From Bryobacterales bacterium (GTDB lineage Bacteria; Acidobacteriota; Terriglobia; Bryobacterales; Bryobacteraceae), in NCBI GenBank assembly GCA_003166865.1, contig PMUP01000071.1, positions 41,443-105,442 on the forward strand: 64,000 nucleotides of DNA, written 5' to 3'. A model generated the notes under the pieces. It had not been told where the DNA came from and did no database searches. It worked only from the letters and a program-made list of their open reading frames with translations. The translations under genes and the position numbers were made by a program. Position 1 is the first letter of the stretch. Each line of letters starts with the position of its first letter. Positions 1,617 through 50,858 of this stretch are shown one piece after another.

Positions 1617-4600
1617 GTGACACCCGAATCGCAAATGACAACTGTATCACTCGCGGGCTTCGATCCGCTGGTGGCGGAGTGGTTCAGTTCGCGCTTTGCC
1701 GGCCCGACTGAGCCGCAAATCCTGGGATGGCCCGAGATTCGCGCGGGGCGCGACGTGCTTATTTCCGCGCCCACGGGATCAGGCAAAACGCTGGCTGCGT
1801 TCCTGATCTGTCTCGACAGACTGGTGCGCGCTGCCCGCGCCGGCGCGCTTGCGAATGAAACCGAGGTCGTATATGTTTCTCCGTTGAAGGCGCTGAGCAA
1901 CGATGTTCACAAGAATCTCGAGGTTCCGCTTCGGGAGATCTCGGAGCTAGCTGTGCAACGAGGTATCCCGTTTTCGCCGATTCGCACTGCGGTTCGCACC
2001 GGCGACACGCCGGCTTCCGAGCGCCAAAAAATGGGCAAGCGGCGCCCGCACATCCTGGTGACCACGCCTGAGTCGCTGTACATCCTGCTTACGGCCGCCA
2101 AGTCGCGCGAGATGCTGAAGACCGTCCGAACCGTGATCGTGGATGAGATCCACGCCGTCGCCGACGACAAACGCGGATCGCACTTGGCTCTATCGCTGGC
2201 GCGGCTGGATGCACTTATGGAGAGCGACGCCAAGCCACAGCGTATCGGGCTTTCGGCGACCGTGAAGCCCATTGAAGAAGTTGCCGCGTTCCTGTCGCCG
2301 CACGCGCGCGTAATCGATATCGGCCATCGCCGCGCGATGGATCTGGCTGTGGAGGTTCCGCGCGACGAGCTCGGCCCGATAGCCAGCAACGAGATGTGGG
2401 CCGAGATTTACGATCGCGTGGCTGAGCTGATCCTCGCCCATCGCACCACTCTGGTATTCGTGAACACGCGGAGGCTGTCGGAGCGCGTCACGCATGCCTT
2501 GAGGGAACGCCTGGGCGACAATATCGTGCTGCCCCATCATGGCAGTCTGTCGCGTGCTTTGCGCCTCGATGCCGAAGCGCGGCTCAAGAGTGGCGATCTG
2601 CGGGCGGTGGTGGCCACCGCTTCGCTCGAGCTCGGCATCGATATCGGATCGGTGGACTTGGTGTGCCAGATTGGATCGCCGCGGTCGATCGCCGTGGGTC
2701 TTCAGCGCGTGGGCCGTTCCGGGCACTGGATCGGCGCCATGCCCAAAGGCCGGTTCTTCGCCACCACTCGCGATGAGTTGATCGAGTGCGCTGCCCTGGT
2801 GCGCGCGATTCGCTCGGGGCAATTAGATCGCCTGGAAATTCCCACAGCTCCGCTCGATATCCTGGCCCAACAGATCGTGGCCGAGTGCGCAGCGCGTGAT
2901 TGGCAGGAAGATGAACTGTACGCTCTGATTCGCAGCACCTACCCGTATCGCGATCTCGATCGCAAGCACTTCGAAGCGATCATCGCGATGCTGTCGGATG
3001 GCATCGCTACCCAGCGCGGCCGAAGCGGAGCGTACCTGCATCGCGACCAGGTGAACCACCGTGTACGAGGCCGTAGGGGAGCCCGGCTGGCCGCCATCAC
3101 CTCGGGCGGGGCGATCCCGGACACCGCGAATTACTCTGTTGTAGCCGAACCGGACGGCAAAATCGTCGGAACGGTGGACGAAGACTTCGCGGTCGAGAGC
3201 CTGGCCGGTGACGTCTTTCTGCTCGGCACGGGTTCTTGGAGGATCAAACGCGTGGAGCCCGGACGCGTGCGTGTGGAGGATGCCCGCGGCGCGCCGCCAT
3301 CGGTGCCGTTCTGGAATGGCGAGGCGCCCGGGCGGACGCTCGAGCTGTCGGAAGCCGTGGGTAATGTGCGGGAGGAGATTGCCAGGCTGGGGGATGGTGC
3401 CACGCAATTTTTGGCGGACGAATGCGGCCTGGATGAGGGCGGCGCCAAGCAGGCCATCGCGTATGTAGTCGCGGGCGTGGCCTCTCTGAACGCGCTGCCG
3501 ACCCAGAAGACCGTGGTTGCCGAGCGCTTCTTCGATGAAGGCGGCGGGATGCAACTGGTGATCCACGCGCCGTTCGGATCGCGCATCAATCGGGCATGGG
3601 GATTGGCGCTTCGCAAGCGCTTCTGCCGTTCATTCAATTTCGAACTGCAAGCCGCGGCCACCGATAACGGCATCAACATCTCGCTGACCGAGCAGCACGC
3701 TTTTCCGCTCGAATTGGTGTTTGAGTTCTTAAAGCCCCAGACCGTCGAAGATGTTCTCACGCAGGCCATGCTGGATGCGCCGATGTTCACGGCCCGGTGG
3801 CGATGGAACGCCTCGCGCGCGCTGGCTCTTCCGCGATTCCTGGGTGGACGCAAAGTTCCACCGCCCATCCAGCGCATGCGGGCCGAGGATCTGCTGGCGG
3901 CTGTGTTCCCGGATCAAGTGGCTTGCGCGGAAAACCTGACCGGCGAGATTCGCATTCCCGACCATCCGCTAGTTGAGGAAACCATCGATAACTGCCTGCA
4001 CGAAGCGATGGACCTGGATGGTCTCAAACGTATCCTCGAAGGCATGGAATCGGGCGCCATCCGTAAAGTTGCGATCGACAACGCCGAGCCATCGCCCTTC
4101 TCGCACGAGATTCTCAACGCAAATCCTTACGCCTATCTCGACGATGCGCCGTTGGAGGAACGGCGAGCAAGAGCTGTCCAGTTGCGGCGCACGCTGCGGA
4201 CGGATGTATCGGGAGGCGCTGGCATATTGGATCCCGCCGCGATTGCGACAGTGGCCGCGGAATCGTGGCCGGATGTTCGCGACGCAGATGAACTGCACGA
4301 TGCTTTGCTCAGTCTGATCACGCTGCCGCCGGTGCAAGAGTGGCAGGAGTTTTTCATCGAGCTAGCGGCCACGGGCCGGGCCAGTGTGATGGAGCGGAGC
4401 GGGAAAAGTTTCTGGGTAGCCACCGAGCGGCTGCCCGTGATGAACGAAGTGCCACCGGTGGCGCGAGGCTGGATGGAGTCGCTCGGTCTTGTGACCGCGG
4501 CATCGCTGGCTGGAACGCTGGCCTTCCCGCTCGATGAGATCGAGGCCGCGCTGCTGAAGCTCGAATCGGAAGGGCAAGTGATGCGGGGCCGGTTCTCGCC

Positions 4601-48424: not shown

Positions 48425-48990
48425 AGCTGTTGGCTGTTCTCGCGTTGGTTGTTGCCTTGACGGCGTGTCGGCAGCACACTGCATCGCTCGAAGTGCTCGG
48501 CGAAGTTCCCCAATTCGAATTGATCTCGCAGGACGGGCAGCCATTTCACAGCCAGACGCTGGCGGGCAAAATCTGGGTCGCGGATTTCATTTACACCACC
48601 TGCCCCGGACCGTGCCCGCGCATGACCTCCGAAATGCGGGAAGTGCAGGACGCCGTATTGAAAGTCCCCGCCATATCCAGCAATGTGCGTCTGGTGTCGT
48701 TCACGGTCGACCCGGCGCAAGATACGCCGCCGGTGCTGGCCGCCTATGCCAAGACGCATGGCGCCTCGTCTGCGATGTGGTATTTCCTCACCGGACCGGT
48801 TCCGGTATTACAGACGCTGGATCGCGACGCGTTCAAGCTCGGCAACATCGACGCGAGCATGCAGCACAGCACGCGCTTCGTGCTGGTGGATCGGCAGGGG
48901 CGCATTCGAAGCTACTACGACACGTCGGAATCGTCGGCGATTCCCAGGGTAATTTCGGACATTTACGCGCTGGTGCGGGAACGCGGCTGA
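48421..48990 (+). CDS. SCO1/SenC family copper chaperone
   Basis: Lipobox-like start; VADFIYTTCPGPCPRMTSEM, SFTVDPAQDTP. Confidence 0.93.
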   Translation: MKLLAVLALVVALTACRQHTASLEVLGEVPQFELISQDGQPFHSQTLAGKIWVADFIYTTCPGPCPRMTSEMREVQDAVLKVPAISSNVRLVSFTVDPAQDTPPVLAAYAKTHGASSAMWYFLTGPVPVLQTLDRDAFKLGNIDASMQHSTRFVLVDRQGRIRSYYDTSESSAIPRVISDIYALVRERG

Positions 48991-49403
48991 TGGACGTCCA
49001 CTCGCTTCCGGCGGTGAACGCGACACTGAACGGCATCGCGGCGGTGTTGCTCGGGATCGGCTACACGTTCATGCGCAAGGGCCGGATTCAGGCGCACAAG
49101 CGCGTGATGTTGACCGCGTTTTCGGTATCGGTGGTGTTCCTGGCTTGTTATCTCATTTACCACTTCAACGCCGGCCTTGTGTATTACCAAAAGACCGGTC
49201 TGCTTCGCTATGTCTATTTAACGATCCTGACCACGCACACGAGCCTGGCGGTGATCACTCCGGTGCTCGCGATCATCACGCTGCGGCGCGGGCTCCGGAT
49301 GGATGTCGAGCGGCATCGCGCCATCGCGCGCTGGACGTTTCCCATTTGGATGTATGTGAGTGTGACGGGAGTGGTCGTGTACCTTATGTTGTACCGGTTT
49401 TAG
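48990..49403 (+). CDS. DUF420-family membrane protein
   Basis: MDVHSLPAVNATLNGIAAVLLGIGYTFMRKGRIQAHKRVM, TTHTSLAVITPVLAIITL; downstream of SCO1. Confidence 0.9.
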   Translation: MDVHSLPAVNATLNGIAAVLLGIGYTFMRKGRIQAHKRVMLTAFSVSVVFLACYLIYHFNAGLVYYQKTGLLRYVYLTILTTHTSLAVITPVLAIITLRRGLRMDVERHRAIARWTFPIWMYVSVTGVVVYLMLYRF

Positions 49404-49782
49404 GTGGGAAGGAATACGAGGGAGACAAGGAATACAAGGAATGGCAGTAAGCGTCCAGGAAGCGGCTGGTCTCATCTAGCAAAATCAAGAGTGAGTCCGT
49501 GCTGGCATAGCCGAGATCTTTAGCGAGGATCAGGAAATAGCGGCACTCTTCCAATGACGCTTGCCCGATATTCAGGAAACGGGCCTTGTCAGCTCGTCCC
49601 CGGCGTTTGAAGCCCTCTGCAATGTTCGCAGGCACGGAAACCGCGGCGCGTTGCATCTGCGAGCACAGCCCGAACGTCTCATGCTTGGGAAAGCTTGCAG
49701 TTGTCCGATAGATGCCTAGCACCAATGCACGCGCCTTCTGCCAAACCAACAGGTCTTGAAAGGTTTTTGCCGGGGCCTGCAC
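49384..49782 (-). CDS. Four-helix-bundle protein (S23 rRNA intervening-sequence protein / Avd-like)
   Basis: TFQDLLVWQKARALVLGIYRTTASFPKHETFGLCSQMQRAAVSVPANIAEGFKRRG...SLEECRYFLILAKDLGY. Confidence 0.93.
   Translation of the reverse strand: MQAPAKTFQDLLVWQKARALVLGIYRTTASFPKHETFGLCSQMQRAAVSVPANIAEGFKRRGRADKARFLNIGQASLEECRYFLILAKDLGYASTDSLLILLDETSRFLDAYCHSLYSLSPSYSFPPKTGTT
49409..49443. repeat. Left inverted repeat of the four-helix-bundle cassette
   Basis: AAGGAATACGAGGGAGACAAGGAATACAAGGAATG; reverse complement matches 49794-49828 at 34/35. Confidence 0.95.
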
Positions 49783-49793
49783 GCAACTGAGTG

Positions 49794-49828
49794 CATTCCT
49801 CGTATTCCTTGTCTCCCTCGTATTCCTT
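49794..49828. repeat. Right inverted repeat of the four-helix-bundle cassette
   Basis: CATTCCTCGTATTCCTTGTCTCCCTCGTATTCCTT. Confidence 0.95.
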
Positions 49829-49841
49829 GTACTCTATTCTC

Positions 49842-50858
49842 GTGCCCCCCACCAAAGGTCACCTGACCTCCCAAACCTCCGCCGGCGGTTGCGCCTCGAA
49901 ACTGAGTCCCAAGATTCTGGACCAAGTGCTCGCCCGGATCCCGCGCTGGGCGAACGAAAACGTGCTGGTCGGGTACGACACGGCCGACGACGCGGGCGTG
50001 TACTGGCTGACGCCGGAGCTTGCCCTGGTGCAGACCGTCGACTTCTTTACTCCGATGGTGGATGACGCCTACACATTTGGCGCGATCGCCGCGGCCAACG
50101 CGCTGAGCGACGTTTACGCGATGGGAGGGAAGCCGATCTCGGCTCTTTCCATTCTGGCGTTCCCCGCCAAAGGCGATCTGGACGAGTTGGCGGAGATCCT
50201 CAAGGGCGGCGCGGAGAAGATCCATGAAGCCGGCTGCGTATTGCTGGGCGGCCACAGCGTCAAGGACGACGAGATGAAGTTCGGCTATGCCGTCACCGGC
50301 ACGATCCATCCGGATCGCGTCAAAACCAACGCAGGCGCGCGTCCCGGCGATGCGCTGCTGTTTACGAAGCGCATAGGCACGGGCGTGATCTCGACGGCGC
50401 TGAAACGCGGAATCGCGCGCGAATCCGATGTTCAGGCCGCAGTGGACTCCATGCTGAAACTCAACCGTGAAACCTGTGAAGTGATGCTTGGATTCGACGT
50501 GCATGGCTGCACGGATGTGACTGGCTTCGGCCTGATCGGCCATGCGCGCGAGGTGGCCCTAGCGAGTAAAGTTACGCTGGAAATCGATCCGCGGAAGATT
50601 CAGTTCTTGCCGGGTGCAGTGGAATATGCCGAGCAAGGCGCGATTCCAGGCGGCTTGATTAACAATCGGGAGTTTGCGTCGTCATGCGTGGAGGGAAGCT
50701 GGGAACTTGAAGTGCTGCTGTATGATCCCCAGACATCGGGAGGCCTGCTGATTGCGCTGCCGGAGCGCGATGCTGCGCTCCTTGAAACGAAACTGCCCGA
50801 TGCTTACCGCATCGGGCAGGTGACCGAAAGGCAGAATAAACCGATCAGGTTGCTTTGA
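49842..50858 (+). CDS. selD: Selenide, water dikinase (SelD), Cys form
   Basis: LTSQTSAGGCASKLSPKILDQVL, DDAGVYWL, DFFTPMVDDAYTFGAIAAANALSDVYAMGGKPI, DVTGFGLIGHARE, DPQTSGGLLIA; GTG start at 49842 proposed. Confidence 0.93.
   Translation: MPPTKGHLTSQTSAGGCASKLSPKILDQVLARIPRWANENVLVGYDTADDAGVYWLTPELALVQTVDFFTPMVDDAYTFGAIAAANALSDVYAMGGKPISALSILAFPAKGDLDELAEILKGGAEKIHEAGCVLLGGHSVKDDEMKFGYAVTGTIHPDRVKTNAGARPGDALLFTKRIGTGVISTALKRGIARESDVQAAVDSMLKLNRETCEVMLGFDVHGCTDVTGFGLIGHAREVALASKVTLEIDPRKIQFLPGAVEYAEQGAIPGGLINNREFASSCVEGSWELEVLLYDPQTSGGLLIALPERDAALLETKLPDAYRIGQVTERQNKPIRLL

Follow-up and report, generated by a model that had tools for sequence, protein, structure and literature searches.

In the systems formed by repetitive extragenic palindromes and their associated transposases (REP/RAYT), one protein gene is flanked by a repeat in inverted orientation, of which solo and paired copies are scattered over the genome. 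The intervening sequence (IVS) in the ribosomal RNA (rRNA) of Coxiella burnetii, 428-444 nucleotides (nt) in size, carries a gene of the S23 family and has complementary ends that form a long stem; tandem GACAGAT heptamers stand just before the S23 start, and RNase III cuts at the first repeat (PMC4990558). Mobility of IVSs has already been proposed in the literature. Here we describe an element that resembles the C. burnetii IVS in gene family, size, and complementary ends and that lies outside rRNA, upstream of selD, in a 64,000-nt stretch of the genome of a Bryobacterales bacterium (contig PMUP01000071.1, positions 41,443 to 105,442), called the window below. It is likely that this element is one copy of a very compact (~0.42 kb), mobile, IVS-like S23 element; we infer the mobility of the window copy from the anatomy that it has in common with copies in cyanobacterial plasmids. 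An earlier note on this DNA, made by a model from the sequence alone, had proposed a cassette like an IVS or a miniature inverted-repeat transposable element (MITE). That inference proves largely right, and the class to which it applies is much broader.

The S23 gene and its two arms

The arms of the element, at 49409..49443 (left, plus strand) and 49794..49828 (right, minus strand), are reverse-complementary at 34/35 positions, just as the earlier note had stated, and zero copies of the 35-mer with ≤3 mismatches were found in 100 dinucleotide shuffles of the window. The arms are short tandem arrays rather than unique 35-mers, a general feature that the note had missed: the left one reads AAGGAATAC GAGGGAGAC AAGGAATAC AAGGAATG, the right one is the same array inverted, and both are built on the 9-bp unit RAGGAATAC / GAGGGAGAC. 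The note's reading of each arm as SLSPSYS is correct. Enclosed by the arms, on the minus strand, is the gene for an S23 (23S_rRNA_IVP) four-helix-bundle protein (49384..49782; 132 amino acids; GTG start as listed). The right arm, purine-rich on the S23 sense strand, is upstream of its start, and the left arm is downstream, where the C-terminus of the protein runs through it.

The S23 protein scored 119.8 bits against PF05635 (cut-off 33.8) and 110.6 bits against TIGR02436 (cut-off 24), which bears out the family that had been assigned to it. Its AlphaFold model is a four-helix bundle with a mean predicted local distance difference test (pLDDT) score of 92.8, the last, arm-encoded residues being of low confidence. 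The PDB structures nearest to the model are 2gsc (XCC0516 of Xanthomonas campestris, with template modeling [TM] scores of 0.77-0.94 across its chains) and 2rld (BT_0352), followed by 4dwl and 8ub7, both Avd proteins of diversity-generating retroelements (DGRs), so that the Avd-like fold claimed by the earlier note is supported by the predicted structure. XCC0516 forms a pentameric ring (PMC4990558). The common fold notwithstanding, the window S23 protein scores well below the cut-offs of the Avd families (29 versus 80 bits for DivGenRetAVD and 26.8 versus 40 for bAvd). Apart from this sub-cut-off bAvd match, the enclosed gene matches PF05635 only and lacks the Y1 (HUH) transposase family. In the window's genus, the ratio of nonsynonymous to synonymous divergence (dN/dS) of S23 is 0.12-0.16 for pairs with unsaturated dS; the protein is under purifying selection.

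A transcript across the element is predicted to fold into a long stem (z = -7.2), as the earlier note had anticipated. An Rfam scan of positions 48900-50100 gave zero matches, and the element lies between a DUF420 gene and selD, outside rRNA. Unlike an rRNA IVS, it is intergenic, its 9-bp arms are dispersed in the genome, and its S23 gene, on the minus strand, is antisense to both neighbors, which are on the plus strand, whereas the open reading frame (ORF) of an rRNA IVS runs in the sense of the host transcript. The window element would work like an IVS but is none by location or orientation.

Inverted tandem arrays across phyla and within genomes

Inverted short tandem arrays enclose 89/119 S23 loci from many bacterial phyla and the Methanophagales. 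Among loci with full flanks they were present at 83/108, compared to 2/142 control windows of equal size from the same contigs (Fisher p ~1e-40). Relatives had them at 30 of 40 S23 loci, against 3% of cross-locus flank pairs and 0/19 DUF420 controls. In a phylum-wide contig scan, 59 of 80 S23 loci exceeded the same threshold, against 2.5% for cross-paired flanks; these 80 are the loci most like XCC0516, many of them from metagenome bins, and neighbors in the set are partly non-independent. Plasmid S23 loci carried inverted arrays in every case (12/12). The period was seven bases at 70 of the 89 passing loci, eight at 15, nine at 3, and five at 1, with a median arm length of 4.6 units, and the arm before the S23 start was purine-rich at 74/89 and purine-poor at 13/89. 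The units differ between loci, a loose theme, GTGANNM, being common to the seven-base ones. No overlap with rRNA was found among the 40 S23 loci scanned (0/40).

S23 loci that lack a good inverted array might be suspected of being rRNA IVSs. This was rejected, as none of the 20 such loci scanned, 16 of them belonging to the phylum-wide set and 4 to relatives, had an rRNA match. Two S23 genes (L150 and L168) stand between direct, not inverted, arrays. Very long arms occur at L172, where 155 identical bases form a perfect AGTTCTC heptamer array, and at L202, with ~198 bases of a GTGGACG-type array, and suggest recent expansion or re-copying of arms.

The window's genome (G000) contains three S23 genes, all three between inverted short tandem arrays and with a different unit each time: the selD copy has the 9-bp unit, the copy next to hpt has GGTTGTT, and the remaining one has a GGTGGGT-like unit. 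Other copies of the window repeat do exist, with 31 matches to the 9-bp unit in this genome against 0 for the reversed control pattern; the majority stand as single arrays, with a few short-loop palindromes among them. (GGTTGTT reversed is nearly itself, which makes the reversed control uninformative for that unit.) In its dispersed flanking repeat the window element is like REP/RAYT, from which S23 elements differ in having a four-helix bundle instead of a Y1 HUH transposase and a tandem array instead of the REP palindrome. Across ~840 kb of the genome, strong inverted repeats of 7-9 bp period were nearly confined to S23 genes, the third S23 copy falling below the ungapped threshold of this survey. 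One periodic inverted repeat (G000:C12:91767-92245) encloses no S23 gene and, with one frame largely open, was taken as coding sequence with a weak chance repeat. Some 9-bp arrays (L004, L028, and L030) adjoin a second dispersed repeat, of type TTCTGAATTCTGACTTCTGAATTC, for which no S23 gene is known in this genome.

Dispersal of the arm unit is not peculiar to the window's genome. For the arms of 16 S23 loci in their 16 genomes, there were at least 102 dispersed matches to the locus's own unit against 11 to all other units, among the matches listed and with two Luteimonas units merged into one, and nine close opposite pairs of dispersed units all (9/9) had the polarity of the S23 element. Luteimonas S23 arms contain CGGGAAT and GTGATTC heptamers, which match the GGGAATC type of Xanthomonas, and ~400 kb of one Luteimonas genome showed several short-loop hairpins of this heptamer family alongside the S23 copy. 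For the Xanthomonas arrays, of which one strain has 186 with 70 convergent pairs, the published account names no linked gene (PMC4692102). Together with GGGGAYT of Nostoc (PMC4692102) and TAACTGA of Beggiatoaceae (PMC4679880), these arrays resemble S23 arms in being short degenerate intergenic tandem units, and the Xanthomonas heptamer arrays often form convergent inverted pairs (PMC4692102), as S23 arms do. S23 is not mentioned in the texts of these papers on dispersed heptamers (PMC4692102, PMC4679880), and no earlier description of S23 genes inside inverted tandem arrays was found in the open-access literature searched (subscription papers being outside the search). S23 elements with inverted short tandem arrays are apparently a widespread, undescribed class.

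Presence, absence, and inheritance

Cyanobacterial plasmids offer sites with and without the element. In Picosynechococcus PCC 7003 it lies between cas10 and cmr3, which are 12 bp apart in PCC 7002, where there is no element. It follows a TraM-like gene in Nostoc C052 and N. edaphicum and is missing from two Nostoc C057 plasmids at 95-96% identity; the same TraM-side site in ATCC 53789 holds an inverted GGGAAC-array element without S23. Another N. edaphicum copy separates nrdB from nrdA, which are adjacent in Calothrix NIES-4105. Identity was 85-96% in the empty/filled pairs and ~91% in a further pair. Where the Aulosira copy is compared with an empty Fremyella plasmid site (~91%), ~8 bp are replaced with no duplication, and the adjoining ORF is shortened, with a stop codon at the element end. 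No target-site duplication was found in four filled/empty comparisons. Members of one 416-bp family were found at three sites unrelated to each other, their 78-82% identity ending at the arms, and a fourth site has a 179-bp version from which most of S23 has been lost. Of the plasmid copies checked, ten have an arm only a few bases away from the stop codon of a neighbor, as in the window. These alignments show that what comes and goes in cyanobacterial plasmids is the unit from arm to arm, and the occurrence of the one 416-bp family at unrelated sites implies movement.

S23 elements also occur inside cas operons (L284, L287, and L290; cas6-cas4 and cas10-cmr3). A published list of proteins linked to CRISPR adaptation genes includes the 23S rRNA intervening sequence protein (PMC10910872), an association that may be misleading because S23 copies lie inside such operons.

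The strongest alternative, which we nevertheless consider unlikely, is that the arrays are independent host repeats, like the short tandemly repeated repetitive sequences (STRRs) of cyanobacteria or the Xanthomonas heptamers, and form part of the target, with S23 genes inserting or surviving in the loops where arrays form hairpins. S23 copies are indeed far fewer than solo arrays and short-loop hairpins, and the lack of a linked gene in the published Xanthomonas arrays (PMC4692102) accords with this view. Yet the empty cyanobacterial sites carry no array, and in the copies of one family at unrelated sites, arms and gene form a single homologous block.

At the window site itself, the neighbors are those that the earlier note had named: a DUF420 gene (PF04238) at 48990..49403 on the plus strand, with its stop codon at 49401-49403, and a selD-like gene (AIRS/AIRS_C; PF00586/PF02769) at 49842..50858 on the plus strand, whose start is probably the GTG at 49842, judging from the sequence. 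As the note had also said, the S23 ORF crosses the left arm and stops in the 3' end of the DUF420 gene, 20 bp inside it. Between the DUF420 stop and the left arm there are 5 bp, and between the right arm and the likely selD start, 13 bp. With these few flanking bases, the element spans 49404..49841, an extent taken from the arm-to-arm boundaries of the cyanobacterial copies and with exact ends that are uncertain at this site. The mechanical selD ORF begins at 49791 and traverses the right arm; automatic annotation may add a spurious arm-encoded N-terminus to selD (window positions 49791-49841).

Orthologous S23 genes (69 and 65% identical) are located upstream of selD in the congeners G002 and G003, where the inverted repeat is kept, not decayed, and no S23 gene was found at this position in the congener G001. 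Together with the further copies of the repeat, these observations run counter to the outcome that the note had named as its refutation. In this genus the window element was passed down at selD through speciation, at least for part of its history. Its arms pair at 34/35 with each other and near background with the arms of G002; in this genus, both arms change in concert. At another site, in a junction search that covered three junctions, the element is complete in G003, decayed in G002, and absent from G004.

Three further observations concern these sites. The G004 counterpart of the G003 S23 site (L273, G004:C179) is a short, perfect hairpin, AAGGTGAAAGAGGTG...CACCTCTTTCACCTT, with a convergent pair of genes around it; terminator hairpins may be places where elements insert. 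In G003 the element at the selD site (L092, G003:C168, ~4110-4200) has an extra partial S23 3' end and a second array, as if the element end had been duplicated. At the hpt-CDGSH junction, a small CDGSH-like gene is inverted in G000 and G002 (L009 and L279), which carry the S23 element there, relative to G001 (L276), which has none at this junction.

The orthologous position in three congeners, the purifying selection on the protein, arms that stay complementary while changing, and strong predicted stems (z = -7.2 and -6.8) are all features that could be expected of a fixed regulatory structure, in which the arms would be an immobile mRNA hairpin controlling S23 or its neighbors. We consider this quite improbable, given the near-identical sites with and without the element, the copies at unrelated sites, the unsupported tolerance of sense-RNA G-U pairs, and adjoining genes that vary widely from locus to locus.

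Even less credit can be given to a cassette of transposon origin, insertion sequence-like or MITE-like, for which a conventional DNA transposase would act in trans and S23 would be a passenger. Terminal inverted arms, small size, and non-coding deletion derivatives are shared with MITEs. However, S23 elements encode a conserved, not an optional, protein, no target duplication was seen in the junctions read, and almost every locus has end sequences of its own, unlike the ends that transposases use. The cassette of the earlier note stands insofar as the element lies outside rRNA, has complementary ends, and is present or absent as a unit in relatives elsewhere, and fails as a strict MITE. A chance inverted repeat is contradicted by the shuffles, the matched windows, and the recurrence around homologous genes in many phyla and can be dismissed.

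Proposed working and implications

The layout of such elements is an array of degenerate tandem units of 7-9 bp, usually purine-rich, then the S23 gene, and then the same array inverted. They are often placed directly beside a neighbor's stop codon, and the target differs at anything from a few bases to a few tens. If the window element is a mobile S23 element, its working might be as follows. With a pentameric ring known from a solved relative and with the fold of the reverse transcriptase partner Avd, the S23 protein would recognize the array. Because target duplication is absent and the arms are re-matched, our guess is that a single strand of RNA or DNA, folded into a hairpin, is the moving form, that the enzymes are provided in trans, and that one arm may serve to re-copy or correct the other. 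S23-less relatives would then include solo arrays and the short-loop hairpins built on the same unit. In the transcript the arms would pair into a long stem, which inside rRNA would give an IVS cut by RNase III; cleavage of the window-element transcript is plausible because it, too, would form such a stem (z = -7.2). It is also a guess, prompted by the pentameric XCC0516 and the median of 4.6 units per arm, that one array unit could be bound per S23 protomer.

Several points weigh against a mobile element. The window copy was itself never seen to move and has a history that is at least partly vertical (the selD locus in G000, G002, and G003), and neither selD beside DUF420 nor an empty counterpart of the window junction was found in the other loci examined. 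Single empty/filled pairs cannot separate loss from gain. The element encodes no nuclease or polymerase. About one-quarter of S23 loci have no clear inverted array, many of these still having an array at either end, in some cases directly oriented. Finally, arm mismatches run opposite to G-U tolerance in the sense RNA (89 versus 145 in all and 22 versus 40 by locus), and selection on sense-RNA pairing of the arms is not supported.

A wider proposal can be offered only tentatively, as one that may well turn out otherwise: S23 elements could be a distinct, widespread, and minimal mobile class, in which each protomer of the ring reads approximately one unit and spread proceeds via a hairpin, with one arm templating the other, seeding orphan 7-9 bp arrays such as the Xanthomonas heptamers, with rRNA IVSs being those copies that came to lie in rRNA.

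Structures have been solved for the S23 family, which is without a known function, and there is no agreement on where dispersed heptamer arrays come from; linking the two would provide a testable role for each. The rRNA IVS would become a special case of a widespread element rather than an oddity. The element itself would be a very small (~0.4 kb) protein-coding mobile element with an apparently new type of end, diverse tandem arrays that remain complementary while their sequence changes.
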